A stretch of 41,870 bases of DNA, taken from Chitinivibrionales bacterium. GTDB taxonomy: Bacteria; Fibrobacterota; Chitinivibrionia; Chitinivibrionales; WJKA01. The notes below the pieces were generated by a model that saw only the letters and a program-made list of their open reading frames with translations, did not search any database and had not been told where the DNA came from. Positions 3,331-40,087 of this stretch are shown piece after piece. Position 1 is the first letter of the stretch; the number at the start of each line of letters is the position of its first letter. Location: the NCBI GenBank assembly GCA_014728215.1, contig WJLZ01000054.1, positions 1-41,870 of the forward strand, given 5' to 3'. A program made the position numbers and the translations under genes.

Positions 3331-3359
3331 AGAAAAATAAATCGAAAATCGAAAAACGG

Positions 3360-4832
3360 TTACAGATTAATAATTTTCGTTATGCACTCTTCACCGTCAA
3401 TTGACAGTTTCGCCATGCAACACCCCTTGATATTAGCTATTTCCGGAACAGCAGCGGTAAACCTGCCATCCGACAACACAGTGATTTCTTTCTGAAACAG
3501 ACATTTCCCGGCAATATCATACAGCGACACTCTAATCGGTGCAGGCCGGTTGAGCCGGCCGGTTATCATGGTTCCGGTTAGGGTGATCGTCATATTATCC
3601 ATCCCGCGTTGGAAAACAGTCCCGATATTCGTTGCATTGGCATCAACATTGCACAATTTATAGGGATCAATAACATAATATTTTATATTGGCAGCACCGT
3701 CCCGTGAAGAGAATGTCAAATGAATATTGCCATCAGGCCCTCTTCGGAATGACGGATCAGACCAGCCTTTAGGATTTGAATTGCTGAGATTGGCGACTCT
3801 GTTCCAGGTTGCTCCCCGATCATTTGAAGCCGAGACAAAAATGCAATTTCTATTAACTCCGCAATCAGCAGCAGCAATAATATGCCATCCGTTGAGGCTT
3901 GACCCCGGATTGTCCCAATCCAGTGATATGCCGCCGACACCTGAACCGCCAACATCGCTAATATTTGTCCAGCTATTGCTCCAGGTCACCCCGCCGTCAT
4001 CCGAACGCTTATAACAGGGACTATGTCGCGATCCGCCCCGGGCTACAATCTGTAAATCCATCATATCGGGTGAATGTACCAGAAACGCACCGCCAATCGG
4101 GCCTTCTCCCGAACAGCCGGTTCCCAGATGAATAACATCCCAGGCATCACCATTAGTTTCATTGCCGGTATAATTATTCGGAGGAATAACTGCGATATGA
4201 GAATCCCATCCACTCGAATTTTCTCGTGAGCCGGCCGCAAGCAAAGCGCCTTTTTCATAAGGATGATTATCGACAACAATCTCAAGGGGATGGTTCTGGT
4301 GCGGCCCCACATGATAGCCGTCATAATTTCCGGAATTAAAGTAGCTGTCGGCAGGTAAACGGTGGCGGGTTCCCCAGCTTTCACCATTATTGGTAGACAC
4401 TTTAATATATCCTGTCCAGTTTGAAGGATCGCCAATGTGATAGTAGCAGAGCAACGGCTTATCCCCCGTTGTTACCTGGTACGGCACTGGATCGAATCCC
4501 GGGCCGCCGGTGTTGCCGTCAACTACCAGCATATCAGGATTCCAGTTGCCGCCGGGATCTTTATAATTATACGCAATTCCTGACCCCTCCCCTTCGCCAA
4601 GAGAGCTGTTTACATAAGCAATCAGGAGACGGTCAGTTGAAGTGAAAGTTATATTTGACGGATGTGAATACCGATCGGTATCGGGAATATTTGATGATGA
4701 TACTATGCAACCGCGATCAACAGCAGGGCCACTGTCTCCTGTCGGGATATCATCTCGAATGGCATAAATCGAACAAAAGAATAATAATGTGCATGCCGCC
4801 GACGCTTTCGCTGCTAAAATCAAGCGTTTCAT
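3360..4832 (-). CDS. Secreted sialidase-fold (BNR/Asp-box) protein, paralogue 3
   Basis: A 490-residue exported protein with a signal peptide ending near residue 24. The body is a six-bladed BNR/sialidase-type propeller (about 40-400) with Asp-box turns such as STNNGESW, SDDGGVTW and SNDRGATW. The C-terminal ~80 residues (RVSLYDIAGKCLF to TKIINL) match the Por/T9SS-like sorting domains of neighbouring proteins. It is the most divergent of three tandem paralogues: where the other two have KNKPVELPDG or KDKPLELPDG it has QNHPLEIVVD. It is the last gene of the operon, 53 bp after the previous stop, with an AAGGAGG ribosome binding site. The classical GH33 arginine (RIP) motif is not evident, so the glycan substrate is open; sialic acid, Kdo-like or uronic residues are all possible. 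Confidence 0.8.
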   Translation of the reverse strand: MKRLILAAKASAACTLLFFCSIYAIRDDIPTGDSGPAVDRGCIVSSSNIPDTDRYSHPSNITFTSTDRLLIAYVNSSLGEGEGSGIAYNYKDPGGNWNPDMLVVDGNTGGPGFDPVPYQVTTGDKPLLCYYHIGDPSNWTGYIKVSTNNGESWGTRHRLPADSYFNSGNYDGYHVGPHQNHPLEIVVDNHPYEKGALLAAGSRENSSGWDSHIAVIPPNNYTGNETNGDAWDVIHLGTGCSGEGPIGGAFLVHSPDMMDLQIVARGGSRHSPCYKRSDDGGVTWSNSWTNISDVGGSGVGGISLDWDNPGSSLNGWHIIAAADCGVNRNCIFVSASNDRGATWNRVANLSNSNPKGWSDPSFRRGPDGNIHLTFSSRDGAANIKYYVIDPYKLCNVDANATNIGTVFQRGMDNMTITLTGTMITGRLNRPAPIRVSLYDIAGKCLFQKEITVLSDGRFTAAVPEIANIKGCCMAKLSIDGEECITKIINL

Positions 4833-4885
4833 GTTTTTCCTCCTTTTTGGTAAATATTGAATAGTGTATGTAATACTGTTTACCT

Positions 4886-6214
4886 TTACTGGATAATCAT
4901 TTTGTTATGAACTGAATGCCCATTTTTCGATGCGACCTTTAACAAATAAACGCCCCCGGAAAGCGATTGCTTTGCAGTATTCAGGGATTTGTTAATATTT
5001 CTGCCGTCAAGTGAATAGATTTCAATCTTTTCACTGCTGAATCCGGAAAAATGCGCTCGATCGAGCCGTTCCTCTTTATTTCGGTGTAAAACGGTCGCGT
5101 CGCCAATACCAAGCACTGAGGGATCCACGACAAAATGGAGTATCTTAGCGCGCTCCAAGGCAGTAAAAGTGGTATGGATCATGCCGTCGGAGGTCTGTAT
5201 CACTGCCGAATAACTTCCCGGATTAATCCGTTCCAGGCCATTGGGCGGGAAATCATCAGGCGTCATGAATTCCACCATTTTGGTCCAGTTCAAGCCATTG
5301 TCACTGGCATAGAGGCTGATCCCCGCCCTTCTGCTGCTGTGGCTGTTGGCGATCAGTACATGTTTGCCGTTTTCAAGTGTGACGCCGTCAAAGCCGGTGC
5401 CCCCGCGAGTCGGGGAATAGATCGCGTCGGGAGAATCGGGAATTACCGACAGACTCGACCAGGTGTTGCCGCTGTTTTCGCTGAAAGCGGAAAAGGGATA
5501 TGCCGGCGATGACGCCCCACCCCGGCAGAGAATCTGGTATTTCCCGTTGCCATGGTTCAAAATGGTCGGCTGAATACAGCCCCATTCCGTATTATTCCCT
5601 TCCACGCTCAGGTCTCCGGTTTTACTCCATCCGGTGCCGCCGTCATACTGGCCTTCCGGCGCTTTTTCCATGTGCACTTTCCAGGTATGGCCGCTCTCGG
5701 TGCTTGACCCCATAAGAAGCGTGCCGTCAGGGAGCTCAACCGGTTTGTTCTTGATCGGGCCCAGATAACCCGAGGGAAGCTGCTTGCTCGATGACCAGGT
5801 GATACCATTGTCGCTTGAGGTTTTCACGTACCCTCTCCATGAACTGATATCATCACCAACATGGTAATAAAGCAGCATCGGGCCGTTTGAGGGCTGGAAA
5901 AGAACGGGATTCCGATTTGTGTTGCCGTCATCACCGACCTTGACCCTGTTACCCCAGCCGCTTGCGGTTTTACGGTTGAGGTAAATTTTTGCGCCCGTTT
6001 CACCACCGCTTGCCTGATACCAGGCAACGACAAGAGAGCCGTCGTTTGCTTCAACCAGAGTGGACGAATGGCTTTCGCTGATAGTGCCGGGCACTTCTTC
6101 GGCGACAGTTACCGATGCATGCTGGTTTTCCGGGATCGAGGGAATTGAATAAGCGAAAAACGAATACAATAGAGCCGTTGCTGCTGCATGAAACAGTAAA
6201 CATCTTATTGACAT
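4886..6214 (-). CDS. Secreted sialidase-fold (BNR_2) protein, paralogue 2
   Basis: A 442-residue exported protein; the signal peptide ends near residue 23 (FAYS). The body fits the PF13088 (BNR_2) sialidase-like family. It has the segments SESHSSTLVE and NPVLFQPSNGPMLLYYHVGD, the conserved GPIKNKPVELPDGTLL loop, and Asp boxes SSDNGITW, SENSGNTW and SDNGLNW. The C-terminus (EIYSLDGRNI to HNKMIIQ) is a short Por/T9SS-like sorting domain. It is the middle gene of a three-gene operon, 34 bp after the upstream paralogue, with an AAGGAG ribosome binding site. It is probably an exo-acting glycoside hydrolase at or outside the cell surface, with undetermined substrate. Similarity to the paralogue at 6249 is clear by eye over the whole propeller. 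Confidence 0.85.
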   Translation of the reverse strand: MSIRCLLFHAAATALLYSFFAYSIPSIPENQHASVTVAEEVPGTISESHSSTLVEANDGSLVVAWYQASGGETGAKIYLNRKTASGWGNRVKVGDDGNTNRNPVLFQPSNGPMLLYYHVGDDISSWRGYVKTSSDNGITWSSSKQLPSGYLGPIKNKPVELPDGTLLMGSSTESGHTWKVHMEKAPEGQYDGGTGWSKTGDLSVEGNNTEWGCIQPTILNHGNGKYQILCRGGASSPAYPFSAFSENSGNTWSSLSVIPDSPDAIYSPTRGGTGFDGVTLENGKHVLIANSHSSRRAGISLYASDNGLNWTKMVEFMTPDDFPPNGLERINPGSYSAVIQTSDGMIHTTFTALERAKILHFVVDPSVLGIGDATVLHRNKEERLDRAHFSGFSSEKIEIYSLDGRNINKSLNTAKQSLSGGVYLLKVASKNGHSVHNKMIIQ

Positions 6215-6248
6215 GGCTTTCTCCTTTTTGTTGATAGTAGATTTCTGT

Positions 6249-7694
6249 TCATTGAATGGTAATCTTTACCAGGGTATTTACGGATGCTTCTCCTTTCTTT
6301 TTCGCCAGATAGAGTCCCCGCGGAAGATATCGTCGTGAAAAGATACCGTTTTCCAACCCGGCACTATTGATACATTGACCGTCGAGTGAGTACAGGAGAA
6401 AATCATTTTTTTGCAAATAAGAAAAGATGTCCTGCCGCCCGGCTGCCGAAAACCAACTCTTGTCTTTATCTGTAAATCCTGATTTTCCTGCCGGCGCCGC
6501 TGAAATGGGTCTTTTCCCTACAGCAACAGCGCTGTAATCGAATTGCTGCCAATCGATTTTCGAGTAAATGATCTTTCCGTTTTTCTCAAATCCGTAGGAG
6601 CAATGAAGCATATTATCCGACCCGGCAATCACCGATGGATAATCGCAGTATCGGGAATCACGATTCCAGTCGACCAGTTCGATTTCAATAACCTCTTCCC
6701 AATGCAAACCGTCACCGCTGATCGCTCCGGCAATTTCACGCCTTCCATGATCGCTGTAGATAGTGAAAAAGTGACCGTTTGGTAATCTGACGCCGTCAAA
6801 GCCCTGATTTGACGGAAAATCCCGCGGATCTTCGTTATTCGGACTGAGGATTAGTGCAGAATCCATCATCGGGGTCCAGGTCTGCCCGCCATCGTAAGAA
6901 AACGATGTATTGGCCCCACGCTTGACAGTCCGGGCTATTATCTGAATCGTCTGACAGTTACCATCATGAGGCAAAAAGAACGGTTGAATACATCCCCAGT
7001 CAACCCAGTCATCGGTGCCGATCTTTTCCGGAGGAACATTATTGTCGATTTCCTGTACAAACACCAGATCATCGATATAATTCGACGTTTTTTCAACGTG
7101 AACAGACCAGCCGACAAACGCATTTTCTTCAGTACTCCCCCCCAGCAGTAATGAACCATCGGGCAGTTCAAGCGGCTTGTCCTTTGCAGGGCCGCCAAAA
7201 TTGCCGTACTGATTACAGAGCGGATAAGGATTGCTGCAATCCGGGAGCAACGTTCGGTCCGACCAGGTAAGGCCGTCGTCGGTTGACGTTCTAACCACAC
7301 CTTTCCAGGTGTTGGGATTTCCACCGTATTTGTAATACAAAAGCAACGGCGCACCATCTTTTTCCGGCTGAAACAAAACCGGATTCCAGCACGATGATCC
7401 ATCCTCACCATTGACATCCACCGCAACGCCGTCGCTCCAGTTTCCCGACGAGTTTTCTTTGCATGATACCCATATCCGGGTCGAACTCGAACCTTCACTT
7501 CTCCCACCATACCATGCAATAACTAAAACGCCGTTTTTCGTTTCCGCTACAGTGGAACCGTGATTGAAATCGGAAAAATTGCCGCCGACATCCTCACGCG
7601 CAATAAGCGCATCCTGACCGATTTGTGCCCAGGCTCCATAGAAAAAAAGCCCCGCCATAATGCATGATTTGGAAAGCTTTTTAAAGCTGAACAT
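6249..7694 (-). CDS. Secreted sialidase-fold (BNR_2) protein, paralogue 1
   Basis: A 481-residue exported protein with a signal peptide ending near residue 23 (YGAWAQ). A BNR_2-type propeller spans about residues 30-380 and has the segments NHGSTVAETKNGVLVIAWYGG, NPVLFQPEKDGAPLLLYYKYG and AKDKPLELPDGSLL. Its Asp boxes are STDDGLTW, SYDGGQTW and SGDGLHW. A less conserved linker leads to a Por/T9SS-like C-terminus (LLYSLDGQCI to LVKITIQ). It is the first gene of the three-gene operon, behind an AGGAGG ribosome binding site and a 230-bp divergent intergenic region shared with the GntR/LacI-type regulator, which probably controls it. The three tandem copies suggest recognition of different linkages of one glycan. 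Confidence 0.85.
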   Translation of the reverse strand: MFSFKKLSKSCIMAGLFFYGAWAQIGQDALIAREDVGGNFSDFNHGSTVAETKNGVLVIAWYGGRSEGSSSTRIWVSCKENSSGNWSDGVAVDVNGEDGSSCWNPVLFQPEKDGAPLLLYYKYGGNPNTWKGVVRTSTDDGLTWSDRTLLPDCSNPYPLCNQYGNFGGPAKDKPLELPDGSLLLGGSTEENAFVGWSVHVEKTSNYIDDLVFVQEIDNNVPPEKIGTDDWVDWGCIQPFFLPHDGNCQTIQIIARTVKRGANTSFSYDGGQTWTPMMDSALILSPNNEDPRDFPSNQGFDGVRLPNGHFFTIYSDHGRREIAGAISGDGLHWEEVIEIELVDWNRDSRYCDYPSVIAGSDNMLHCSYGFEKNGKIIYSKIDWQQFDYSAVAVGKRPISAAPAGKSGFTDKDKSWFSAAGRQDIFSYLQKNDFLLYSLDGQCINSAGLENGIFSRRYLPRGLYLAKKKGEASVNTLVKITIQ

Positions 7695-9524: not shown

Positions 9525-10898
9525 TCAATTCCGAAAACTGGTCACCGGTGCAGGCACATGCCCGCCATGGGCAATGAACTCTTTGCTTCCCTCCGGGCAA
9601 TGGACCGCAATAATTTTCGATGCCCCGAACAGACCGCCGAAATCCACCATTTCGCCCGCCTTTTTTCCCGGAACCGGAATAATCCGCACCGCGGTCGTCT
9701 TGCCGTTATACACACCGATAGCAGCTTCATCCATAATAAGACCGCAGATCGCATGAACAGGGGTATCGCCCGGAATGCAGACCATATCCAGCCCCACCGA
9801 GCAGACCGCACTCATGGCTTCGAGCTTTTCGATACTCAAATCGCCGTCACCGGCAGCTTTAGCCAAAGCATGGTCTTCCATGAGCGGAATGAATGCGCCC
9901 GAGAGTCCTCCTACCGACCGGGAAGCGAACAGACCGCCTTTTTTAACGGCATCGTTGAGCATGGCAACCGCAGCAGTCGTTCCCGGCGCGCCGATCCGGC
10001 TGATCCCCATGGCCTGATAGATCTCCCCGACCGAATCCCCCACCTTGGGGGTCGGCGCAAGCGAAAGGTCCAGAACACCAAATTTCACCCCGAGCATCTC
10101 GGCAACTTCGCTGCCGATCAATTCGCCGGTCCGGGTCACCCGAAACGCAGTCTGCTTGACTTCTTCGGCAATATCATCGAGCGTGCACCGGGGATTGGCG
10201 GAAACCAAACGCTCGACAGCGCGCTTGACAACACCGGGACCAGACACCCCCACATTGATAACGCACTCAGGCTCCCCCGCGCCCAGATAGGCACCGGCCA
10301 TGAATGGATTGTTTTCGGGGATGTTGACATAGACAACAAACTTTGCACACCCGAAACCGTTTGTCGATTCGGTCGCCCCGGCGATCCGGATAATTTTTTC
10401 TCCCACGAGCTTGACCGCATTCATATTGATGCCCGAGCGGGTGGTGCCTACATTTATCGATGAGCACAGGCGCTGCGTTGATGACAACACTTCGGGAAGC
10501 GAGCGGATCAGAAGCTCTTCACCCTTTGTCATCCCGTTATGCACCAGAGCTGAATAGCCGCCGATCAGATCGACATCCACCTCGGCGGCAGCGGTATCAA
10601 GTGCGCGGGCAATAGTAAGCGCATCAGGCAACGAGCAGCCTTCGAGCAGAAAACTGACCGGCGAAACCGCCAGCCGTTTGTTGATTATAGGGACCCCGTA
10701 CTTAGTGGAGAGCCGATTGCACATGCGAACCAGACTTCCGGCCTTTGCTTTAATCTTTTTTATAATATTAGCAGCAGTATCACCGCTGCCGGTCCGTCTG
10801 CAATCGTTGATATTGATCCCCATAGTCACCGTGCGGACATCCAGATTCTCCTGTTGAAACATTCTGACCGTATCCAGAATGTCATTCTTCCTAAACAT
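9525..10898 (-). CDS. UPF0210 (DUF711, PFL-like) family protein
   Basis: A 457-residue cytoplasmic protein, close to the usual length of the UPF0210/DUF711 family. This family is structurally related to pyruvate formate-lyase-type proteins but has no established reaction. Family-like stretches include VRTVTMGININDC, SINVGTTRSGINMNAVKL and the glycine-rich VGVSGPGVVKRAVE. The start overlaps the end of the ACT-domain gene upstream by 8 bases (the TAG of one lies within ATGTTTAGG of the other). In many bacteria an ACT-domain protein of the UPF0237 type is paired with UPF0210 in this way, so the two probably act together, perhaps with the ACT protein as amino-acid-sensing partner. It converges with the regulator gene ending at 9491. 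Confidence 0.9.
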   Translation of the reverse strand: MFRKNDILDTVRMFQQENLDVRTVTMGININDCRRTGSGDTAANIIKKIKAKAGSLVRMCNRLSTKYGVPIINKRLAVSPVSFLLEGCSLPDALTIARALDTAAAEVDVDLIGGYSALVHNGMTKGEELLIRSLPEVLSSTQRLCSSINVGTTRSGINMNAVKLVGEKIIRIAGATESTNGFGCAKFVVYVNIPENNPFMAGAYLGAGEPECVINVGVSGPGVVKRAVERLVSANPRCTLDDIAEEVKQTAFRVTRTGELIGSEVAEMLGVKFGVLDLSLAPTPKVGDSVGEIYQAMGISRIGAPGTTAAVAMLNDAVKKGGLFASRSVGGLSGAFIPLMEDHALAKAAGDGDLSIEKLEAMSAVCSVGLDMVCIPGDTPVHAICGLIMDEAAIGVYNGKTTAVRIIPVPGKKAGEMVDFGGLFGASKIIAVHCPEGSKEFIAHGGHVPAPVTSFRN

Positions 10899-11475
10899 GT
10901 GCGCCTCCCCTCAGAAGCTGCCGTACCGAGCAGACTTCGTTGGTGGCACGAAACAGATTCTCGTGCTGCAGACTTACCCGGAGGTCCATAGGTTGAAGCA
11001 GCACAGCAAGATCCTGCTGGATATGCTGGATATCGAGCTTGTCGGGAAGCGATATTTCTCCGATATGGGTCACGCTCTCTCCTTTAATCTCGAAGGTGTA
11101 ATCTTCGATATTGATATTCTTCTCAGCCAGGTAGGTGGTCAGTGTCCGGAGAATCCCGGGGGATTCCTTGCCGAACAAGGTGAGAACATACCGGCCGTCA
11201 GCATTGGACTTCATGACCCTGGGTTCAGCTCTATAAGGTTTGACCACAACCGATATGTCTTCGGAGCCGAATTCCGCCTCTATCGCTGCTCTGATTTCTT
11301 TGTCGGTTATGGGCTTGTCAAAAGCGGCAGTGAGTACAACGGTGAAATAATCGTGAACGACAGTCTGACTCATGCCGTCGATATTACCGCCGTTTTCATA
11401 CAGCGCCGATGAGATCTTTTTGACAATACCTATTTCATCGGCGGTAAGAAGTGAAATGACAAACCGGTGTTGCAC
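10891..11475 (-). CDS. ACT-domain protein (GcvR/UPF0237-like), partner of UPF0210
   Basis: A 194-residue protein with two ACT domains in tandem: about 1-85 (HRFVISLLTADEIGIVKKIS) and about 92-175 (RYVLTLFGKESPGILRTLTT). The arrangement is that of GcvR-type regulators. I place the start at a GTG (11475), because AAGGAG lies exactly 6 bases upstream. The longer reading frame to 11592 has no ribosome binding site and adds an unrelated 39-residue leader. It overlaps the following UPF0210 gene by 8 bases, so the two are translationally coupled. ACT domains bind amino acids or related small molecules; which one is not visible here. Confidence 0.85.
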   Translation of the reverse strand: MQHRFVISLLTADEIGIVKKISSALYENGGNIDGMSQTVVHDYFTVVLTAAFDKPITDKEIRAAIEAEFGSEDISVVVKPYRAEPRVMKSNADGRYVLTLFGKESPGILRTLTTYLAEKNINIEDYTFEIKGESVTHIGEISLPDKLDIQHIQQDLAVLLQPMDLRVSLQHENLFRATNEVCSVRQLLRGGAHV

Positions 11476-11864
11476 AGTGAACTCCTTGAAAAATGATTGT
11501 TGCGAGGAGATAAAATACAATGATGACAGCATGCACGATCGGGAGATCTCGCCAACAAAAGTCCGTAGAAGCATGAATGGATTCTCGATCATGGCGATTA
11601 TGAAATATTAATCGCCGCTTCATTGGATGATATCAGATTGCGGGCGATGTGCAGCGTATACTGGCCGGAACAGCCTTTTATGCAGGTACGCAGTCCTTTT
11701 ATCTTTTTCCGCCTCTTTCACGCTCGCTCACAAGTGTGATCGCATTTTCGACCTCAAAACCATAAAATTCTTTAAATTTACCGTTTTTGTGCGTACATTT
11801 AACATAGAGCGCTCACAAATTTGGTGAAATAGTATTGAAATTCTGTATCCGAAGGAGGTATTTT
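11476..11864. other. Divergent intergenic region
   Basis: A 389-bp gap separates the ACT-domain gene (minus) from the secreted protein gene (plus). The plus-strand ORF at 11627-11827 has no ribosome binding site and is taken as non-coding. It contains a possible promoter at 11777-11805 and a short TCACA-AG-TGTGA palindrome at 11728-11739. Nothing else was recognised. Confidence 0.5.
11777..11805 (+). promoter_or_regulatory. Possible sigma-70-type promoter
   Basis: TTTACC and TAACAT are separated by 17 bases, each matching four of six consensus positions. They lie about 60 bases ahead of the ATG at 11865. The match is modest, and Fibrobacterota promoter rules are not known to me. Confidence 0.25.
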
Positions 11865-17298: not shown

Positions 17299-19137
17299 AT
17301 GCATAAATCGATCGGCCTGCTGAGTATATTCTGTATATCTTCCGGTGCGATGATAAGCTCCGGTCTTTTCGTTCTTCCAGGACTTGCCTATGCCAATGCC
17401 GGACCGGTGGTATTCCTCTCCTATTTTATCGCCGGCTGCGTTGCACTGACAACCGTTTTGAGCCTGTCGGAACTCATCACCGCAATGCCGAAGGGGGGCG
17501 GCGATTATTTCTATGTTTCCCGAACATTCGGTCCGCTTTTCGGAACCGTTTCCGGCCTGCTCAGTTGGCTCGCCTTGTCGCTTAAAAGCGCTTTTGCAAT
17601 AATCGGTCTTGCCGAACTTATTTATCTTTCCTTTGGCATTAATTTCACTCTTTCGGCACTTGCCCTGACAGTTTTTTTCACCATCCTGAACCTTGCAGGT
17701 GTAAAGGAGGCCGTCCGTTTCCAGATAGTGCTTGTTATCGCCCTGTTCGCGATACTGGCTCTGTTTTCCGTTACCGGTTTACAGGATATAGTCATGACCC
17801 GATATGAACCATTTTTATCCCGTGGATTCAGTGCGCTCATTTCAACTGCAGGATTCGTGTTTGTATCATTCGGCGGCGTGCTTACCACAGCGAGTATTGC
17901 CGGTGAAATCAGGAATCCATCAAAGAATGTTCCTGCAGGGCTGATCGGCTCAACGATCGCTGTAACCATTGTCTATTCACTGGTCACCATGATAGTTGTT
18001 GGTGTGGTTCCCGGCGAGACGCTGGAAAAATCGCTTAATCCAGTAGCCACTGCGGGATCGGCGGTCGGCGGCATGCCGATGTATGCGGCAATTACTATCG
18101 CTGCACTGCTTGCCTTTATTACCACTGCAAACGGCGGAATTCTCACGGCATCCCGCTATCCGGTCGCACTGGCCAGAGACCGCATGCTTCCAAAGCTCCT
18201 CCTGAGAACCGGTAGAAAGAAAGGTACTCCGTGGGCGGCGATTACGGCAACCGGCATACTGATTGCCCTTTCTGTGCTGTTGAAACTCGACATCCTGGTT
18301 AAAGCGGCATCGACAGTGGTACTGCTGTCGAATATCTTTGCCCATCTCTCGGTTATCGTTATGCGCGAGAGCAAAGTTTCAAATTATCTCCCCACATTCA
18401 GAGCACCACTCTATCCCTGGGTGCAGGTTTTCGGCATTATTGTTTTTACCCTGCTCATCGTCAATATGGGAATCGAGCCGATTCTGTTCAGCCTGCTGTT
18501 TGTATTCGCAGGCGTAATCCTCTTTTTCATCCGCCGAAGGCAGTCGGAAACAATCTCCCCGGCATTTATACACCTTATCGAACGCATCACCAACAAAAAA
18601 CTTGGTACAAAGCACCTGTCCGATGAACTGCGTGATATAATCAGCGATCGTGATCATATAATCAAAGATGAATTCGATGAAGCTATCGAGTCATCATCCT
18701 TTCTTGACAGTGAAGCGCCCATGGAGCTGAATGAATTTTTTGAGAAAATTTCGACCATGGTGCACAATTCATTACCCTTTCTAAAGAAGCCGGAAATTGA
18801 AGCGCTCCTCAAAGAACGGGAATCGGAGAGTAGCACGGCTATCAGCAATTTTGCGGCAATTCCGCATATAATTGTAAAAGGAGAGTCGGTCTTCTCGGTT
18901 TTCCTTGCCCGATCGAAAAGCGGTATTCGTTTTTCACCCGACAACCAATCGGTGAAAGCGGTGTTCATCCTGATAGGCACCAAAGACACACGTAATCTCC
19001 ACCTCCGCGCACTTGCGGCAATCGCCCAGGTTATCCAGCATCCGGACTTTGAGAAACGATGGCTCTCTGCACGCAATCATACGGAAATCAAAGACCTGTT
19101 TTTGCTCAGTAAAAGGAAACGGAAAGGGGGGCACTAA
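17299..19137 (+). CDS. APC-type amino-acid permease fused to a PTS EIIA domain
   Basis: A 612-residue protein. Residues 1 to about 415 carry about 12 membrane segments of the APC amino-acid/polyamine superfamily, with the family start SSGAMISSGLFVLPG and ELITAMPKGGGDYFY. A cytoplasmic C-terminal part (about 430-612) includes a PTS EIIA type-2 domain (about 455-605). Its phospho-acceptor motif AAIPH (His about 523) is present, and it ends in AVFILIGTKDTRNLHLRALAAIAQVI. This permease-EIIA fusion occurs in scattered bacteria. It suggests transport gated by phosphorylation or by PTS energy state, but no other PTS component is in the window. The substrate is unknown. The start has a weak ribosome binding site (CGGAG). 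Confidence 0.85.
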   Translation: MHKSIGLLSIFCISSGAMISSGLFVLPGLAYANAGPVVFLSYFIAGCVALTTVLSLSELITAMPKGGGDYFYVSRTFGPLFGTVSGLLSWLALSLKSAFAIIGLAELIYLSFGINFTLSALALTVFFTILNLAGVKEAVRFQIVLVIALFAILALFSVTGLQDIVMTRYEPFLSRGFSALISTAGFVFVSFGGVLTTASIAGEIRNPSKNVPAGLIGSTIAVTIVYSLVTMIVVGVVPGETLEKSLNPVATAGSAVGGMPMYAAITIAALLAFITTANGGILTASRYPVALARDRMLPKLLLRTGRKKGTPWAAITATGILIALSVLLKLDILVKAASTVVLLSNIFAHLSVIVMRESKVSNYLPTFRAPLYPWVQVFGIIVFTLLIVNMGIEPILFSLLFVFAGVILFFIRRRQSETISPAFIHLIERITNKKLGTKHLSDELRDIISDRDHIIKDEFDEAIESSSFLDSEAPMELNEFFEKISTMVHNSLPFLKKPEIEALLKERESESSTAISNFAAIPHIIVKGESVFSVFLARSKSGIRFSPDNQSVKAVFILIGTKDTRNLHLRALAAIAQVIQHPDFEKRWLSARNHTEIKDLFLLSKRKRKGGH

Positions 19138-19681: not shown

Positions 19682-20143
19682 ATGAAACATCCTGATGCTT
19701 TTACTATTCATACCTATAATAGAGAACGACAGTTTCCATCGTGGATAACCATTCAAAAACTTACCGATTTTCTTCATGAGCATATGCATCCTTACCATGA
19801 TCCCCCGGAGGATATTGAAAATGGTATTCGATACGCTGTCTCACCCCCGCCTGAAAAGGGAGGATTTATTCTCTGCCTCCAGCACGAGGAAGAGCTTGCC
19901 GGCGTTCTGGTGATGCTTCATACCGGTATGTCGGGATATGTCCCCCCCAATCTTCTTCTTTTCTTTGCCGTCGCAAAGGAGTATCGGTCAAAAGGACTCG
20001 GAAGCCGGCTTATACGGCATGCTGCCGAGATGTGTCCTGGAGATATCAAACTTCACGTGGAATATGATAATCCGGCGAAAAGGCTCTATGAACGATTGGG
20101 ATTTATATCAAAATATGCCGATATGAGGTTCCGCCATGAATAG
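19682..20143 (+). CDS. GNAT-family N-acetyltransferase
   Basis: A 153-residue acetyltransferase of the GNAT fold. It has a beta-strand/loop LLLFFAVAKEYRSKGLGSRLIRHA at about 98-121, in which RSKGLGS is the acetyl-CoA pyrophosphate loop. The C-terminal part, VEYDNPAKRLYERLGF, is the standard motif B with N, A, LYE and GF. The ribosome binding site is AAGGA. It overlaps the racemase gene by 8 bases and is probably the first gene of a four-gene operon ending with a symporter. The substrate is unknown; its neighbours suggest an amine or amino acid. Confidence 0.85.
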   Translation: MKHPDAFTIHTYNRERQFPSWITIQKLTDFLHEHMHPYHDPPEDIENGIRYAVSPPPEKGGFILCLQHEEELAGVLVMLHTGMSGYVPPNLLLFFAVAKEYRSKGLGSRLIRHAAEMCPGDIKLHVEYDNPAKRLYERLGFISKYADMRFRHE

Positions 20144-21353
20144 AATCACGATCAATCTTGAAGCGCTCTATCATAACATCAAATATATCGACAATATGAT
20201 GGCCCGCCGTGGGAGCGTCTGGACCCTTGTTACAAAAGTTTTGTGTGGCGACTCTTCAATTCTTGAGGAGCTGAAAAATCTCGGCATTCATTCCGCCGGA
20301 GACACACGCCTTTACAACCTGAAGGAGCTGAAAAGCGTTCATCCCGATTGTGAACGGTGGTATCTTCGTGTCCCTCACCCATCGATTGTTAAAGATGTCG
20401 CTCATCTCTGCCATGTAAGCCTCAATAGCGAAACTGAAATAATCGAAGCGATAAATAAGGAGGCTCGGGCCCATAATACCAAGCACCGAATTATTATAAT
20501 GATCGAATTGGGAGACCTTCGGGAAGGAATACTGCCCGGAAGCCTTATCAAATTCTATAAACGAGTCTTTACCCTCGATCACATTGAAGTAATCGGTATC
20601 GGTTCCAACCTCGGCTGTCTGTCCGGAACGGTGCCGTCACTCGACCAGCTCATGCAGCTTGTGCTCTACCATGAGCTTTTAGAGCTGAAATTCAAACGGC
20701 AATTGCCCTTTATATCAGCCGGAACCAGTGCAACACTGGCACTTCTGAACATGCAGGATATTCCTTCCAAGATTAATCACTGGCGTATCGGAGAATCGGT
20801 TTTTTTAGGGACCGATCTTATCAATCGGGGTACGTTGAGTGGCTTGCGTGATGATGTATTCACCTTGGAGGCGGAGATTGCCGAAATAAAACACAAGAGC
20901 ATGCAGCCGCTGGGTGAAATTGCCGATGTCGCTCCTTTTGAACCCCATCCAAATGAACATGAAATTTCACCGGGACAGCGTGGCCGACGGGCCCTTATAA
21001 CGGTCGGTGAACTTGATACCGATGTCAGAGGATTAATCCCGACCAATCCATCATGTCGGATTGTCGGAGCAAGTAGCGACATAACTGTTGTTCATTTTGA
21101 CGGAGAGAACGACGCGGACATCGGTGTCGGCTCCCATTTGTCTTTCAAATTGAACTACTCCGCCCTCCTTCGTCTTATGAACACCCGGTATGTAACCAAG
21201 CATATCAAGCCAATGAATTCGTCAAAATTCAGAGATAGACACGATGTACACCATTCACCGCCCAATATAGCCCGGCTGTCCCCGGTGATAAAAAAGGATC
21301 CGGTTCCCCAATCAACACCCGTACATTCGAAAGGATCGAAGAAAAATGGTTGA
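20136..21353 (+). CDS. PLP-dependent amino-acid racemase, ornithine-racemase (Orr)-like
   Basis: A 405-residue fold-type III PLP enzyme of the alanine-racemase N-terminal family. The internal aldimine lysine is in LVTKVLCGD (about Lys34). Orr-type conserved stretches include MIELGDLREGI, GIGSNLGCLSG, FISAGTSATL, NHWRIGESVFLGTD, VGELDTDVRGLIP and SSDITVVHFD. This pattern is closest to the ornithine/lysine racemase group, not to Alr. A tail of about 45 residues after about 355 is rich in Ser, Pro and Lys and looks disordered. Starts and stops overlap those of the GNAT and methyltransferase genes, so translation is coupled. No D-ornithine pathway gene is near, so the role may be production of a D-amino acid. 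Confidence 0.85.
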   Translation: MNRITINLEALYHNIKYIDNMMARRGSVWTLVTKVLCGDSSILEELKNLGIHSAGDTRLYNLKELKSVHPDCERWYLRVPHPSIVKDVAHLCHVSLNSETEIIEAINKEARAHNTKHRIIIMIELGDLREGILPGSLIKFYKRVFTLDHIEVIGIGSNLGCLSGTVPSLDQLMQLVLYHELLELKFKRQLPFISAGTSATLALLNMQDIPSKINHWRIGESVFLGTDLINRGTLSGLRDDVFTLEAEIAEIKHKSMQPLGEIADVAPFEPHPNEHEISPGQRGRRALITVGELDTDVRGLIPTNPSCRIVGASSDITVVHFDGENDADIGVGSHLSFKLNYSALLRLMNTRYVTKHIKPMNSSKFRDRHDVHHSPPNIARLSPVIKKDPVPQSTPVHSKGSKKNG

Positions 21354-22401
21354 ATTGAACGAACTTTATTCACGCGATATGGGTACATGGAATTCATGTG
21401 CCAAGACTTATGAAACGCAAATTGTCAATGGTCATCCCGATGTCACTGCTTATGAGGAATTCGAAGAAGACCTACTGGATCGTCTTCTGGTGACACTCAC
21501 CCGTGACCATGGTCGTCATGCACATATCTATGATTTTGGCTGTGGTTCGGGGCGGTTGCATATAACACTGGGGAGAAAATCCATTCTTGCTAAATCGGGC
21601 AACAAAGACAGCGCCCATTCTACCGGAAATCTGCGTAACGGCGGAAGCATCGTTCATATCGGCGGTATCGACTTTTCCGAAGAAATGATTATCCTCGCCC
21701 GGCAGAAAGCAGCAAAACAGGGGCTGTCCCATCTTATTCCAAAATCGTTGTCCTATGATGTAGGATCAGCATTTGAAGTTCCTTCCTATGAAGGTGAAAA
21801 CACTCCTGTTGCGGTAAGTGTCTGCAACTCGGTCGGGGTAATGCAGGGTCCCGAGGGTGCACAACTCCTTTTTGAAACCATGCGGCGATATGTTGAAAAG
21901 AAAAAGGGAATGGCGATAATCAGTGGCTATAAAAAGGAGGCGCTCAAAGATTTCGGTCTGGGAAATTACGAATCTACCCTCGATGTTTGCGGGCAGCCGG
22001 TCTGGCTGAAGCCCGATACATATTCCAGCCGGGACTATCATTTGATTTCTCATTACTACAAAAGAGCTTTTGACACAAGCGATACAATTGTTGTTGATGT
22101 ATTCGATAAGGATCATAAAAAACTGGAAACCGGATTCACTCTGTACCGGGATCCGGATTCCACAAAAGAAACTCTGGAAACCGGAATAATTAAAACATAT
22201 CAAGACTACAATTCCCGATGGTACGGCAGCGATCAGTTCAAACAATGGGTTTCGGAGCTATGGGGAGATGTTCCATCGTGGTACGTTGACTGCAGCAAAA
22301 TAGACAGTCTTCGTGGAACTCCCGCACAAATGGCAGTGCTCGATTTTACCGGTGCGTTTAAAAATTTTGCGAATCACTGGAATATTGAGCAGATCGGATA
22401 A
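21346..22401 (+). CDS. SAM-dependent methyltransferase of unknown specificity
   Basis: A 351-residue class I methyltransferase. Motif I is IYDFGCGSGRL (about residues 62-72), and the acidic strand 2 end is GIDFSEEMI. Between them lies an insertion of about 40 residues not seen in typical short methyltransferases. Later segments (VSVCNSVGVMQGPEGAQLLFE; AIISGYKKEALKDF) fit the rest of the fold. The C-terminal ~170 residues are not recognised. It starts 8 bases inside the end of the racemase gene. The substrate may be an amino acid, given the operon, but the sequence does not show this. Confidence 0.8.
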   Translation: MVELNELYSRDMGTWNSCAKTYETQIVNGHPDVTAYEEFEEDLLDRLLVTLTRDHGRHAHIYDFGCGSGRLHITLGRKSILAKSGNKDSAHSTGNLRNGGSIVHIGGIDFSEEMIILARQKAAKQGLSHLIPKSLSYDVGSAFEVPSYEGENTPVAVSVCNSVGVMQGPEGAQLLFETMRRYVEKKKGMAIISGYKKEALKDFGLGNYESTLDVCGQPVWLKPDTYSSRDYHLISHYYKRAFDTSDTIVVDVFDKDHKKLETGFTLYRDPDSTKETLETGIIKTYQDYNSRWYGSDQFKQWVSELWGDVPSWYVDCSKIDSLRGTPAQMAVLDFTGAFKNFANHWNIEQIG

Positions 22402-22499
22402 AATGCAGTCGGATAGTCGCCCATCAGACTCAATGCCGCCTGATAATATTCTCCAAAGGAGCCGAAAATTTTAATCAATTACGAAAAGGGGAAGACAGC

Positions 22500-23981
22500 A
22501 TGACTGAAACAATGATAATATGGGTCATTGTTGCCGCCTATATGCTCTTTATCTTTTTCAAAGGTGTTTCAAAACACCGGGAAATTGATACGACTGATGA
22601 TTTCCTTGTTGCCGGACGGACTGTTCCCTGGTTTTTTCTGTTTTGCACCATGGGAGCAACGGTTATCGGTGGAGGAGCATCGATTGGAGCGATCGCCAGG
22701 ACCTATGAATGGGGAATCCTTATGGTCCTGGTTTCAATGGGATGGTATCTCCATTTTATATTCTCCGGCCTTGTTGTTGCACCGCAGTTTCGGGAAGCCA
22801 AACTCTATACGGTCGCCGGTTTTTTCGGTAAGCGATTTGGTGAAGGCCCCCGCTTCCTGGTGATGATTCTCTCTCTTCTGTTCTCGGTATTTATTGTGGC
22901 CGCCCAAATGGCCGCCTTCGGCAGTGTACTCGCCGCCATACTCCCCGATTTCGCCAATGCAACGATGGTCCTTAAGTCGGCAATCCTTATCGGGGGCATG
23001 ATGGTTGTCGTGTATAGTACCGCCGGGGGCCTCAAAGCCGTTATCCATACCGATGTCTATCAATTTGTCATACTCTTTATTGGATTCGTTATCACTCTCT
23101 TCTTCTGCTTTCCCGACATTATCGAATTAAATGTAACCATGAATGAGGAAGTAAGTATGAAATTCTTTTATCCCCACGGCGGCAAGGGATGGGTATTCCT
23201 GATAACGACCTTTCTTGCTTTCCTACTGGGAGAAACATTCGCTCCCGGCTATGCAACGCGATACTGTGTCGGGAAGAATATCAAGGAGACGCGGATCGGC
23301 ATTGCAGGCGTCGGCTTTTTCCTTGCCCTTACCTTTCCGGTTATTCTTTTTGTCATCGCTCTCTATGCCCGTCTCCACTTTCCCGATATCGAACCCCAGC
23401 AGGCGCTTCCCATGGTTATCAGACAACTGAACAACCCTGCGGTTGCAGGCCTGATCATCGGCGCCCTTCTCATGGCAGTCATGTCTTCAGCCGATTCGGC
23501 TCTGAATTCTTCGACGGCAATATTCGTGAAAGACCTCTTCGAACATCAATTAAAATGGAAAGATACCCAAAAGCGTTCACTTCTGAAAACCGCCCGTTTC
23601 TGCACGATCTGCCTTGGCGTTTCAGCAATCATTATTGCCATGCTGTGGTCCGATATTATTCAACTGCTGCTTTTTACCTATCATGTTTGGGCCCCGGCAA
23701 TAATCGTCCCGGTCTGCGTGGGCGCTTTGACTAAAAATCGTTCGATCCGGTACTCCAGACATATCAAGGTCACCATGATAACGGCGACTATCGCAGCGCT
23801 GGCGTATAAGGGGATTCTGATGCTCAACGGTAAGGGAGTTGAATTGCCGTTGCCGGAGAATGTCCTTACCTTCATGGAGATAATCGACACTTCGGTATTC
23901 GGCGTCGCCGTTTCCCTGATCGTATTTCTTATTACCCTTGCCCTCTTTCGCTCTCCGGCGAAAGACGCCACTATGGAATAA
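22500..23981 (+). CDS. Sodium:solute symporter (SSS family)
   Basis: A 493-residue inner-membrane protein with about 13 hydrophobic segments. SSS-family signatures include DDFLVAGRTVPWF, GATVIGGGASIGAI, LLGETFAPGYATRYCVGK and the ALLMAVMSSADSALNSSTAIFVKD region that carries the second Na+-site serines. It belongs to the proline/pantothenate/choline-like branch and uses Na+ to import an organic solute. It is 98 bp after the methyltransferase, behind AAGGGGAA, so it may share the operon transcript. It converges with the fibro-slime gene (24015). The substrate is unknown. Confidence 0.85.
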   Translation: MTETMIIWVIVAAYMLFIFFKGVSKHREIDTTDDFLVAGRTVPWFFLFCTMGATVIGGGASIGAIARTYEWGILMVLVSMGWYLHFIFSGLVVAPQFREAKLYTVAGFFGKRFGEGPRFLVMILSLLFSVFIVAAQMAAFGSVLAAILPDFANATMVLKSAILIGGMMVVVYSTAGGLKAVIHTDVYQFVILFIGFVITLFFCFPDIIELNVTMNEEVSMKFFYPHGGKGWVFLITTFLAFLLGETFAPGYATRYCVGKNIKETRIGIAGVGFFLALTFPVILFVIALYARLHFPDIEPQQALPMVIRQLNNPAVAGLIIGALLMAVMSSADSALNSSTAIFVKDLFEHQLKWKDTQKRSLLKTARFCTICLGVSAIIIAMLWSDIIQLLLFTYHVWAPAIIVPVCVGALTKNRSIRYSRHIKVTMITATIAALAYKGILMLNGKGVELPLPENVLTFMEIIDTSVFGVAVSLIVFLITLALFRSPAKDATME

Positions 23982-24014: not shown

Positions 24015-27000
24015 TCACTTTACAACCAGCATCCTCCCTTGTTTTACTATCGACTTTGTTTGCCAGGTATAGAGCACCATCTTGCCAGCAATTTCCGAAG
24101 GTACGGCAAATATACTGTTTTTCTGCAACAGGTTTCTGGTGATTACCCTGCCATCAAGAGAATACAAGGTCAGAATGCCCTTTTCGGGAAGGGTAAAAAA
24201 TGACCCCCCGGCTGTGGTAAGAGCCTGAAATTTCATGATCATTCCCCTCTGAAGTCCACGCATTACCGGAGTTTCCACCCCTTTCAGCCGGCCGAATTCA
24301 ATATCACCGGCCGGCTCCCCGATCGGGTCATATTTGTATTGAAACTGCTCGTCAATCGTAATATCGTATCCTCCGTTATGGGCAACCTTGTCGGAAGCGT
24401 TTCCCCATGCAATCGAACCGTCATACACCCCGGCCGATGTTTCTATCAATGTAACTACTTCCTCTTCACTGCCCATCGTCATGAGTTTTATCGTGACGGT
24501 ATCGATACCGGCGGTCTTATCGTCGTCATACACCCGGATATAGAGTAGATCGCCGGTTTTATAGAAATCGGTCAATTTTGCCTGATCACTGTAATCATCG
24601 GTATTGGCATAGTAGACCTGTCCCAGTGCACCAGAAAGAACGGTGGTGCTTGTTGTGGGATCGGGTTCTCCGATTCCGTTGTAGGTATAGGTGTAGGTTT
24701 CACCAATATCAATTTCCAGGGCGTCGTTGTCTGCGGTTCTCGAATCTGTTGGTGCAAAGGGAATGGAGCCCCGGTAGATTCCCGGTTCGGTCTCGGTAAG
24801 GGTGATCGTTTCCCGCTCACCCGACGGACCTTCAATGGTAATCGTAATCTCATCGGTATCGGGAGTTTTGGAATCGTCGGTCACCTGAATATAGAGGGTG
24901 TCGTTATACCGTCCGTAAGACCCACCGATAATTTCATTGGAGTAATTTCCGGTATTGAAAAACTCGACCTTTGCCGCCTGGCCTTCAAGAGTGGTCGATC
25001 CGGTTTTCTGATCTTCGTTAATGCCGTTATAGGTATATGATAATTCATCGCCTACAGCGACGTTGAGAATATCATTTCCACTTGTCCGGTCTGTAGATTG
25101 GCCGAAGGCGATTACGCCGCGGTAGACGGTTGGCGATGATTCGGTCAGGGTTACCGTTTCGCTTTCGCCGTCGGGACCTGCCAATTCTATGGTAACTTCA
25201 TCCTCCCCCGATGTTTTTGAATCGTCGGTGATCTGGATAAACAACGAATCGGAGCGTTTTCTGAACTCTGATAAAGAAGCAAGGTCCGAATAAGAGCTAC
25301 TGTTGCCGAAAGCTATTTCCGAATCGAAGGCCGTGAGGGTTACCGTCCCGGTAATCGGTCCCTGGTCTTCCTGTCCGATACCGAGGAAAGAGAATGAAAT
25401 ATCATCATCGATACCCACATCAAAAACATCGTTATTCGACACTCTCGCGCCGGGATCGCCGAAATCGATCGAGCCGCGGTAGGTACCGGTACCGGCTTCA
25501 ATAAGCTGAACGGTTTCCCGTTCTCCATCGGGGCCGATGAGTTCGATTTCGGTGGTATCGACTCCTTTAGTTTTGGAGTCATCATATACCTGAATATAGA
25601 ACGTGTTACTTGCCTTTACATACGCCTCGATTGTATCGGCGTCGGTGAAATCTTGAAAATTGGAAAACTGGACCAGTGTTTCAATACCCTCAAACACATA
25701 GGTATCCAGCTGAAAGTTGGTTTTAATTGTGACCCGTGAATCGGGGATATACCGCTCCGCATGGTAGAAATCAAAGGGATAGACGACCCCGTCCACCAGA
25801 AAGCCGTCGGGAAGGCTGTCGAGCCGGATGCTGTCGGAGATTGCCGAATGAACCCCGCCCAGATCCATGACCAGACTGTCGTTAACAAAAGCCCAGACAT
25901 CATCGTCCCCTCTGAAGATAAAAAACTGCCCGGTACCTTCGTTGTAAGTAACCTGGGTGTGAATTTCTGTAGTAAATCCGTAGTTGTGATCGGGATGGTC
26001 GGTTTGAAGGTGCCCGTAGGGGTCGGGTCCCCCGGGATAGGCGGGTGTCCAGTTGGAGTCGTTGTCGATAGGGAAAAACTGGGGAAACGATATACCATAT
26101 ACCCCCGGTTCACCGTCGATTTCATCGAACTGGATATCGATATAAAAGGGCCGATTGACACCGGCAACATCGTTGTACCACTGTCCGAAATTGGAAGTGG
26201 TGGTGGCACAGCCGGCCCCGCTCTTGAGAACAACCTGCCGGTGATCTCCGGGGAACGGGGAATTCTGAACTCCTTCAAAGATGGTATTCTGGACCATGCC
26301 GTAAGTCGGGCCGCAGCTGTAATAATTAAAATCAGGATGCATCCCCGCAGTATCGATCGTATTTTTTTCTTTGAAATCACGGATTTTCGCTTTGACTATT
26401 TTGGTCTTTTTTCGGATATTCAGCTTGATACTGGTGGTAATTCTCACATTCGACTCAACCGTATGCCGCTCGGCATGAAAAAAATCGAAGGTATAGGTCT
26501 TCCCGTCTTCCAGAAAACCGTCGGGCAAATCATTCAATCGCACCGATGCACTTCGTGGAGGATGGACACCTCCCAAATCGATAACCAGGGAGTCGTTGAT
26601 AAACACCCAGACATCATCATCACCGGTAAAAGAAAAAACCTGGTCCTTGTCCTGCAGGTAGGTGAACGTAGCATGGAATTCGGTGGTAAAGGAAAAGTTG
26701 TTTCCATCATAGTAATCATCAAAGGGCTCCAACGCCGGATCATTCAGGGAAACATAGGGCTCCCCGCTATTGAGAGGAAAAAAATTTGAATCGATATAGG
26801 TGACCAGGCCGTTTGCATGAACCAGAAAAGGCAGTTCGATCGCAAATTTCCGGTTTACCCCCGAAACATCGTTATACCATTGCTCGAAATTATCTTCTCC
26901 CGACCATTTTGTTCCAACAGCGGAGGCCAATAACCGGGGCCCCCGTTCATCACCGGCGATTGATGAGGTGTCATCAGTAGTATCGATACTGGTGGCGACT

Positions 27001-27254
27001 GCCCCCGTTCTGGCATCGCTTCCCTGAAAAGTCTCAAAATCCGGATGGTCTTCAGAGTTAAAATCCCGGATAATCACCTGAAACCAGGAGGTATCTACAA
27101 CAGAGTCGGGATCCTGTGCCTGGATCGGCCGAACAAAGCCGGCGAGTATAACCGTCGATATAATTAATAATGCCTGGAATGAAAATTTTGAATAACCTCG
27201 TACAACCCCTGATTTAAGCGAATAAACCGCCATTAAGACACCATCTAAAAACAT
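24015..27254 (-). CDS. Large secreted fibro-slime domain protein
   Basis: A 1079-residue exported protein. The start is the ATG at 27254, behind GGGAG with a 6-base spacer; a codon at 27272 is possible but has no such site. The signal peptide is unusually long (about 1-46, ending PIQAQ). Two fibro-slime domains follow (about 55-280 and 285-530), each with a GDDDVW(V/A)F(I/V)NDSLV(I/M)DLGGVH core. Then come four Ig-like repeats of about 105 residues (about 535-960), each with a (Y/F)IQVTDDSKT- and GPxGExET-like pattern. The last ~60 residues (LYSLDGRVI to GRMLVVK) are T9SS-like. In Fibrobacter such proteins are linked to adhesion and to the cellulose-binding slime. A role in surface adhesion is the likely inference. 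Confidence 0.9.
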   Translation of the reverse strand: MFLDGVLMAVYSLKSGVVRGYSKFSFQALLIISTVILAGFVRPIQAQDPDSVVDTSWFQVIIRDFNSEDHPDFETFQGSDARTGAVATSIDTTDDTSSIAGDERGPRLLASAVGTKWSGEDNFEQWYNDVSGVNRKFAIELPFLVHANGLVTYIDSNFFPLNSGEPYVSLNDPALEPFDDYYDGNNFSFTTEFHATFTYLQDKDQVFSFTGDDDVWVFINDSLVIDLGGVHPPRSASVRLNDLPDGFLEDGKTYTFDFFHAERHTVESNVRITTSIKLNIRKKTKIVKAKIRDFKEKNTIDTAGMHPDFNYYSCGPTYGMVQNTIFEGVQNSPFPGDHRQVVLKSGAGCATTTSNFGQWYNDVAGVNRPFYIDIQFDEIDGEPGVYGISFPQFFPIDNDSNWTPAYPGGPDPYGHLQTDHPDHNYGFTTEIHTQVTYNEGTGQFFIFRGDDDVWAFVNDSLVMDLGGVHSAISDSIRLDSLPDGFLVDGVVYPFDFYHAERYIPDSRVTIKTNFQLDTYVFEGIETLVQFSNFQDFTDADTIEAYVKASNTFYIQVYDDSKTKGVDTTEIELIGPDGERETVQLIEAGTGTYRGSIDFGDPGARVSNNDVFDVGIDDDISFSFLGIGQEDQGPITGTVTLTAFDSEIAFGNSSSYSDLASLSEFRKRSDSLFIQITDDSKTSGEDEVTIELAGPDGESETVTLTESSPTVYRGVIAFGQSTDRTSGNDILNVAVGDELSYTYNGINEDQKTGSTTLEGQAAKVEFFNTGNYSNEIIGGSYGRYNDTLYIQVTDDSKTPDTDEITITIEGPSGERETITLTETEPGIYRGSIPFAPTDSRTADNDALEIDIGETYTYTYNGIGEPDPTTSTTVLSGALGQVYYANTDDYSDQAKLTDFYKTGDLLYIRVYDDDKTAGIDTVTIKLMTMGSEEEVVTLIETSAGVYDGSIAWGNASDKVAHNGGYDITIDEQFQYKYDPIGEPAGDIEFGRLKGVETPVMRGLQRGMIMKFQALTTAGGSFFTLPEKGILTLYSLDGRVITRNLLQKNSIFAVPSEIAGKMVLYTWQTKSIVKQGRMLVVK

Positions 27255-27719
27255 ATTTTGCTCCCATTTCACAACGCTGCGTTGTATCTAATAATAAGTT
27301 TTTTCTTTCTGCCCTACGCCTAATCTATAATATATCAAATTTCCAAAATTTAACTATCATTTTTTTGTAATGATTGCATTTTAAATCCGAACCAATTAAC
27401 TTTGGCAATCATTTTAAGCAGAATATGCACCGACGGTTCCTCGCGCCAAGACTGAATTTGCCTATCAGTTTTTTTGAGGAGTAAATTAAAAAAAGCAAAT
27501 CTCCAACAGCTTCGCCCGGGTTTTAATGCCCTCCACCAAACCGGCTTATAGCGAATGCCGGAAGCCGTCTTATAGATACGAACCCGGGATATCGGTACGC
27601 GACAAGGCCATAAGTGAGGCACGAGACAGGCGCATACCGGGCCTATGCAACGATTAAGCAACAAAGCAGATGGGCTCGTCCAGTCTGATCAGCCGAGGGG
27701 AACATTGGTGAGACGGCTT
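27255..27719. other. Intergenic region with unresolved content
   Basis: About 465 bp between two minus-strand genes. The reverse strand is open from 27664 to 27350 (104 codons), but I recognise no family and see no ribosome binding site or coding-like pattern. A GC-rich patch with small inverted repeats (for example GGCTT and AAGCC near 27550-27575) occurs at 27500-27660. It could be a decayed gene, a structured RNA or chance. Confidence 0.35.
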
Positions 27720-39052: not shown

Positions 39053-39988
39053 GTGAAAGGACGGAGATTCCTGAAACGTCGAGAATTTATTCATCTCATG
39101 GGAGGCTTTGGCGCTGCGCTTGCTTTCCCCAATGTGCTTTTGCAAGGATGTAAAAAGGCATTATATAAGGCGGGAAAGCAGACACCGGTGATATGGCTTC
39201 AAGGACAATCCTGCTCCGGCTGCTCTGTTTCGCTTCTCAATAGTATCGACCCTGATATTGCCAGTGTCATTACAGCCCATATCAGTTTGAATTTTCACCA
39301 GACAATCAGTTTTGCAACAGGTGATACAGCTATTAATATTATCAGGCAGGCTGTGGAGAATAAACGCGACGACTATATTCTGGTTGTTGAAGGGTCTATT
39401 CCTTCAAAGTCCGATCTTTACTGTACTCTTGGTGAAATCGACGGTCATCATAAAGGAATACGGGAATGGGTAGAAGAGCTTGGGTCCCGGGCCAGAGCGG
39501 TGGTAGCTGTTGGAACCTGCGCTACCTATGGCGGTATACCTGCAGCCGAATTGCGCGCAACCGGGGGAAATCCGACCGGAGCGCAATCAGTCGCAGAAAT
39601 ACTTCCTCAAAAAACCGTCATCAATGTTCCGGGCTGCCCTCCCCATCCCGACTGGATGGTTGGTACGCTGGTACAGGTTGTTCTGAAACGAAGGCCCAGA
39701 CTGGATGAATACGGCCGTCCACTGCTCTATTTCAAAGACACGGTTCATGATAATTGCGAACGCCTTCAATACTACAAGCAGGAAGTATTTGCAGAAAAAT
39801 GGGGCGATGAAGGCTGTTTATATAAACTTGGCTGTCTTGGAATAGATACAAACTGCGATATCCCCAAAAGGAAATGGCTTGGCGGTGTCAATTCCTGCAC
39901 CGGATCGGGCTCCGGGTGTATTGGATGTACCGAACCGGCATTCCCGGACACCGGGAAACGGGGATTGTATGAACACAAGAAAGGATAG
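39053..39988 (+). CDS. [NiFe]-hydrogenase small subunit, exported by the Tat system
   Basis: A 311-residue small subunit with the [4Fe-4S] proximal ligand CSGCSVS (about 56-62), GTCATYGG (about 154-161), PGCPPHPDW, and the C-terminal cluster ligands GCLYKLGCLGIDTNC and NSCTGSGSGCIGCTEPAFPD. Its N-terminus has a twin-arginine signal (KRREFIHLMG, residues 9-18). The next stretch ends LLQGC (Cys33), resembling a lipobox, so it could be a Tat lipoprotein. There is no C-terminal membrane anchor. The exact start is uncertain: I use the GTG at 39053, and GGACGGAG a few bases later could serve a start nearer KRREF. It is a periplasmic, group 1-like uptake hydrogenase by general resemblance. Confidence 0.9.
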   Translation: MKGRRFLKRREFIHLMGGFGAALAFPNVLLQGCKKALYKAGKQTPVIWLQGQSCSGCSVSLLNSIDPDIASVITAHISLNFHQTISFATGDTAINIIRQAVENKRDDYILVVEGSIPSKSDLYCTLGEIDGHHKGIREWVEELGSRARAVVAVGTCATYGGIPAAELRATGGNPTGAQSVAEILPQKTVINVPGCPPHPDWMVGTLVQVVLKRRPRLDEYGRPLLYFKDTVHDNCERLQYYKQEVFAEKWGDEGCLYKLGCLGIDTNCDIPKRKWLGGVNSCTGSGSGCIGCTEPAFPDTGKRGLYEHKKG

Positions 39989-39990
39989 AA

Positions 39991-40071: not shown

Positions 40072-40087
40072 TACTCCAACTCCGATT

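Follow-up and report, generated by a model that had tools for sequence, protein, structure and literature searches.

We found that the genes for a GNAT N-acetyltransferase (GNAT), an amino-acid racemase resembling the ornithine racemase Orr (RAC), a class I methyltransferase (MT) and a Na+:solute symporter (SSS) form one real, conserved operon in a contig of a Chitinivibrionales bacterium (41,870 nucleotides, hereafter the window), and that GNAT and RAC are a core common to many phyla. The operon may serve the production of a compatible solute, a reading to which we give roughly even chances: an N-acetylated, racemised (D-) amino acid, which would be methylated in this lineage and recaptured by SSS.

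The layout of the set is given in Table 1. The initial annotation had described 8-base overlaps between GNAT and RAC and between RAC and MT, and both proved to be exactly 8 bp, with the reading frames as described; the first of them suggests translational coupling of GNAT and RAC. MT and SSS are separated by 98 bp. The four families that had been assigned were likewise supported by family models. RAC matched Ala_racemase_N with 65 bits, MT matched Methyltransf_31 with 31 bits together with generic methyltransferase models, and SSS matched the SSF domain with 125.6 bits against a gathering score of 22.8, which places it in the SSS family. On the same strand, 544 bp 5′ of GNAT, lies a gene (17299-19137, +) whose product joins an APC-type amino-acid permease to a PTS EIIA type-2 domain. 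We looked in the relatives for conservation of this permease beside the set and found none, and it was left out of the set.

Table 1. Features of the GNAT-RAC-MT-SSS set in the window.
Feature	Position	Strand	Remarks
GNAT N-acetyltransferase	19682..20143	+	153 aa; PF00583 49 bits; core gene
GNAT stop / RAC start overlap ATGAATAG	20136..20143	+	8 bp
RAC, Orr-like fold-type III PLP amino-acid racemase	20136..21353	+	405 aa; core gene
RAC stop / MT start overlap ATGGTTGA	21346..21353	+	8 bp
MT, class I SAM-dependent methyltransferase	21346..22401	+	351 aa, C-terminal extension; optional gene
SSS, Na+:solute symporter	22500..23981	+	493 aa; SSF domain

Three further MAGs from the same order, all of them Chitinispirillaceae (G026, G027 and G039), contain relatives of RAC with 62-63% identity, and the RAC of the window groups with this family in the RAC tree (100/100). 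The order GNAT-RAC-MT-SSS is complete in G026 and G027, while the contig of G039 stops inside MT. In G027 every junction of the set is a 4-bp overlap, including that between MT and SSS, and the GNAT/RAC overlap is 4 bp in the loci L006, L007 and L008. The symporter of the window is 72-74% identical to those in the relatives' operons. Recurrence of the gene order in three other MAGs, together with the same-strand GNAT seen in 71 of the 80 RAC relatives described below, indicates that the set is more than a chance arrangement. Loss of the adjacency among close relatives, which had been named as the observation that would speak against a functional set, was thus not the case; yet the set is sporadic rather than universal, being present in only 4 of 61 relatives. 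The four genes make up one conserved unit in these MAGs, but no fixed quartet exists more widely, where GNAT and RAC form the core and MT belongs to a minority.

To define this core, we scanned 84,980 species genomes with a profile built from the RAC alignment and obtained 395 relatives, the best 80 of which, from more than 10 phyla, were analysed; the same scan with the single RAC sequence as query gave no matches. The partner counts that follow refer to these best 80 of 395. A same-strand GNAT of the same family was found in 71 loci, and in 50 it lies within 100 bp of RAC or overlaps it. Where GNAT is more distant, the intervening genes are mostly an M20 amidohydrolase (M20), a second, classical alanine racemase (ALR) or SSS. 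As for the nine loci without GNAT, RAC lies within 3.3 kb of the contig end in six, and the other three are from Sunxiuqinia. Other partners are less constant: SSS occurs in 32 loci, ALR in about 24, M20 in about 19 and a MarR regulator in 15. The M20 gene of the window's own genome, which has no second racemase adjoining it, was excluded from the M20 partner counts. The symporters of the window-like tier and those of Bacteroidota, which are PutP-like, belong to different subfamilies, and their occurrence in the same place indicates that symporters joined such loci on more than one occasion. Of the 15 RAC loci inspected in Bacteroidales with scores above 400 bits, 12 had a GNAT nearby, as against none of the five Orr-like loci that scored about 290 bits, so that the presence of GNAT sets this clade apart from the remaining Orr-like racemases. 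One Orr-like racemase (L204, 1911-3650, +) lies in a frame of roughly 580 aa, which suggests an extra C-terminal domain or a fusion.

The catalytic features of the enzymes are preserved in the alignments. The PLP lysine of RAC, K34 (VTKVLCG), is kept in every relative that reaches this position; GNAT has kept its acetyl-CoA loop (R102-x-x-G105-x-G107) and MT its SAM motif (DFGCGSG, 63-69). The AlphaFold model of GNAT (pLDDT 93) showed an ordinary GNAT fold, and a structure search with it returned generic GNATs only, from which the acetylated atom cannot be read. For MT (pLDDT 84), the best PDB folds were mostly small-molecule methyltransferases, among them CypM, glycine N-methyltransferase and the glycine sarcosine N-methyltransferase of a halophilic methanogen; given their low TM scores of about 0.4-0.5, N-methylation by MT is a lead only. 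PDB sequence searches with RAC and MT gave no useful match, and no close solved relative of GNAT or MT was found.

We propose the following route to the osmolyte. GNAT would acetylate an amino acid and RAC would interconvert its L- and D-forms. Racemisation by a PLP enzyme requires that the alpha-amino group be free. Acetylation would therefore fall on the side-chain nitrogen of a diamino acid or, if it takes place at the alpha position, would follow racemisation. The substrate is probably a diamino acid, for which ornithine, lysine or a similar compound are candidates. A hint in the same direction comes from the M20 partner, which matches a general amidohydrolase model and resembles DoeB2, which deacetylates acetyl-diaminobutyrate in the breakdown of ectoine, with 199 bits, under the NCBIfam cut-off of 550. 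The pathway would end in a small N-acetyl amino acid, D- or D/L-configured and metabolically inert, that could be hoarded under salt stress. In the lineage of the window, MT might add methyl groups, most likely on nitrogen, giving a more betaine-like product, and SSS, driven by the Na+ gradient, would retrieve product that has leaked or is present in the environment. In other lineages, the M20 deacetylase and the second alanine racemase could feed the product back into central metabolism, and the MarR regulator may control the operon.

Osmoadaptation classically involves trehalose synthesis and K+ uptake, and genes for both flank the set in one genome of the order. In G027, the genes GlgB-GlgX-TreZ-TreY-GNAT-RAC-MT-SSS-TrkH-TrkA lie on one strand, with an MscS-type channel beyond them on the opposite strand; TreZ scored 698 bits (cut-off 539) and TreY 902 bits (cut-off 499). 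Among Bacteroidota, a gene for a betaine transporter of the BCCT family (BCCT) occurs in RAC loci of Marinifilum and Marinilabiliaceae. MscS was found in two loci (L045 and L096) and cation/H+ antiporters in two others (L031 and L032). Such linkage is strong in G027 and in some Bacteroidota loci and absent from most loci, including the window, where no osmotic gene adjoins the four-gene set. A search of Rfam for an osmotic riboswitch gave tRNAs only. The cultured Chitinispirillum alkaliphilum is reported to have trehalose pathways and to lack ectoine genes (PMC4814513).

We also compared genomes with and without RAC for signs of life in salt. Among 295 Bacteroidales, BCCT was present in 9 of 58 carriers and 5 of 237 non-carriers (p=2e-4), and among 345 Flavobacteriales, an independent sample, in 21 of 69 and 33 of 276 (p=6e-4), both comparisons ignoring kinship and genome size. 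Pooling the two orders gave a CMH p of 2e-7, again with kinship ignored and without a neutral-transporter control. The association in Bacteroidales persisted (p=0.004) once we removed the two genomes in which BCCT lies close to RAC. Moreover, the proteomes of Bacteroidales carriers were more acidic, with a D+E/K+R ratio of 1.11 versus 1.03 (p=0.0075, kinship and genome size ignored), although this value is a second look from an enlarged sample, the smaller, underpowered first sample having given p of about 0.066-0.08. From the 80 loci, 13 named isolates were examined, and all are of marine or saline genera. For Labilibaculum, this habitat is confirmed (PMC5760507). The ectoine synthase EctC was absent from 12 of the 13 named marine carriers, and one gave a marginal match of 27.3 bits. 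An osmolyte role, which the initial annotation had offered as one possibility, thus fits the neighbours of the relatives (trehalose synthesis, Trk K+ uptake, MscS and BCCT), the BCCT statistics and the marine or saline hosts, with the reservation that such neighbours occur in some relatives only.

The same genes could also serve nutrition, defence or the building of an envelope component, readings that account less well for the constant GNAT and the salt associations. If the locus were used for nutrient scavenging, SSS would import amino acids or N-acetyl amino acids, M20 would deacetylate them, and RAC and ALR would turn the D- into the L-form for catabolism, with GNAT and MT as side activities. 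This agrees with the recurrence of SSS, M20 and ALR and with the PutP-like symporters of Bacteroidota. However, the most constant partner is an acetyl-CoA-spending GNAT (71 of the best 80 of 395), while M20 is found in about a quarter of the loci; none of the catabolic enzymes is widely recurrent, an aminotransferase-like cluster appearing in only 3 loci; and neither the osmotic neighbours nor the BCCT association would be predicted. We regard scavenging as unlikely. There are GNATs that render D-amino acids or antibiotics harmless, and the GNAT of the set weakly matches resistance acetyltransferases, as would suit a tolerance system in which GNAT, with MT where present, neutralises a D-amino acid or amino-acid-like toxin, RAC converts the D-form and SSS is incidental. 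These matches are far under their cut-offs, a conserved importer would be an odd companion for a detoxifier, and the marine and BCCT bias would go unexplained, which makes tolerance quite improbable.

D-amino acids are wall components, and an N-acetyl or N-methyl D-amino acid might serve as a building block of the wall, of a lipid or of a small peptide. The envelope component that had been suggested as the alternative product gained no support from the loci: among the recurrent clusters of about 1060 genes in the 80 loci, which are partly annotated so that rare genes would be missed, no ligase-like, NRPS-like or wall gene was prominent, and we hold this reading to be just as improbable as tolerance. 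It is also conceivable that GNAT and RAC alone make up the pathway, MT and SSS being passengers that act elsewhere. Besides the window, MT is present in only 5 of the best 80 of 395 loci, and the RACs accompanied by it, from Fibrobacterota, Armatimonadota and Myxococcota, are so placed on the RAC tree that MT must have been gained or lost 2-3 times. Against this, MT is coupled by overlaps in both the window and G027 and recurs at the same position in MAGs of Armatimonadota and Myxococcota, and symporters of two subfamilies were recruited; we consider mere passengers very improbable.

We also compared the set with known systems. RAC resembles Orr in its full-length match, its fold type III and its kept PLP lysine, but scored 289 bits against the Orr model (NCBIfam NF040742, cut-off 480; 333 bits for the RAC of Marinifilum). 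It differs from Orr in belonging to a separate clade tied to GNAT, and we noticed no gene for a D-ornithine aminomutase nearby. The synthesis and breakdown of ectoine offer parallels for GNAT (EctA), the uptake transporter, the M20 deacetylase (DoeB2) and the MarR regulator, which we presume to be comparable to EctR; here, however, a racemase replaces the cyclase, and no ectoine synthase was seen. EctC (PF06339) gave no match in the genome of the window or in nine relatives, in a search in which the positive control was also silent. Against EctA (TIGR02406, cut-off 120.6), the window GNAT had no match and the Marinifilum GNAT scored 16.7 bits.

The N-epsilon-acetyl-beta-lysine pathway likewise combines a GNAT (AblB) with an enzyme acting at an amino-bearing carbon and yields an osmolyte, but AblA is a radical-SAM aminomutase, whereas its counterpart here is a PLP racemase. 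AblB (TIGR03827) is absent from the window genome (G000) and from G026, G027 and G039, and it was found in two relatives without GNAT-RAC (L202, G002:C90:143841-144638; L203, G025:C6:159390-160184). From these few genomes, the order of the window may use alternative acetylated osmolytes. The apparent mutual exclusion of RAC and AblB among the relatives disappeared in the 295 Bacteroidales, where there was no relation either way. Judged by these comparisons, RAC is not Orr, and the set is neither the ectoine nor the AblAB pathway. MT recalls the GSMT route to betaine through the small-molecule N-methyltransferase fold among its best structural matches, but at about 11% identity, a TM score of about 0.45 and with an extra C-terminal region; as a candidate GSMT/SDMT it had no GSMT family match, only generic methyltransferase models.

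An acetylated diamino-acid solute is also attributed to a cluster of Salinicoccus halodurans that includes an alanine racemase and a hydrolase matched to N-acetyldiaminopimelate deacetylase (PMC4685198). That N-alpha-acetyl-alpha-lysine cluster is a lysine-biosynthesis operon connected with the solute only through transcription, and it has a DapH-type acetyltransferase and no GNAT-RAC pair (PMC4685198). Searches of the open-access literature turned up no account of a GNAT-RAC pathway, in keeping with the initial statement that no pathway with this combination was described; the novelty, judged from these papers, is provisional.

Many marine and sediment bacteria lack ectoine genes, and their salt protectant is often unclear. 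It is possible, though on balance doubtful, that GNAT-racemase pairs make a widespread, undescribed class of osmolytes, D-N-acetyl diamino acids that would be N-methylated in some lineages, in hundreds of marine or anaerobic bacteria, many of them without ectoine; the D-form would then keep the pool from protein synthesis and ordinary catabolism. GNAT-RAC is a specific candidate in culturable isolates of genera such as Marinifilum, Labilibaculum, Mesonia and Sunxiuqinia. If this is true, a D-amino-acid class would join the known osmolytes, and a new metabolite would be named along with the proteins for its import and breakdown; should the osmolyte reading be wrong, an uncharacterised two-gene pathway in more than 10 phyla remains.

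Other genes of the window were noted in passing. The gene at 24015-27272 (-) encodes a large protein that is probably secreted and has a PA14 domain along with repeats that look fibro-slime-like by eye. Judged by eye from the translations, a row of genes at 524-7694 (-) encodes three secreted proteins of sialidase/BNR-like type and one protein resembling a nucleoside hydrolase. At 9525-11592 (-), the gene for a DUF711-family protein overlaps one resembling an ACT-domain regulator, and the small and large subunits of a NiFe hydrogenase are encoded at 39053-41626 (+).
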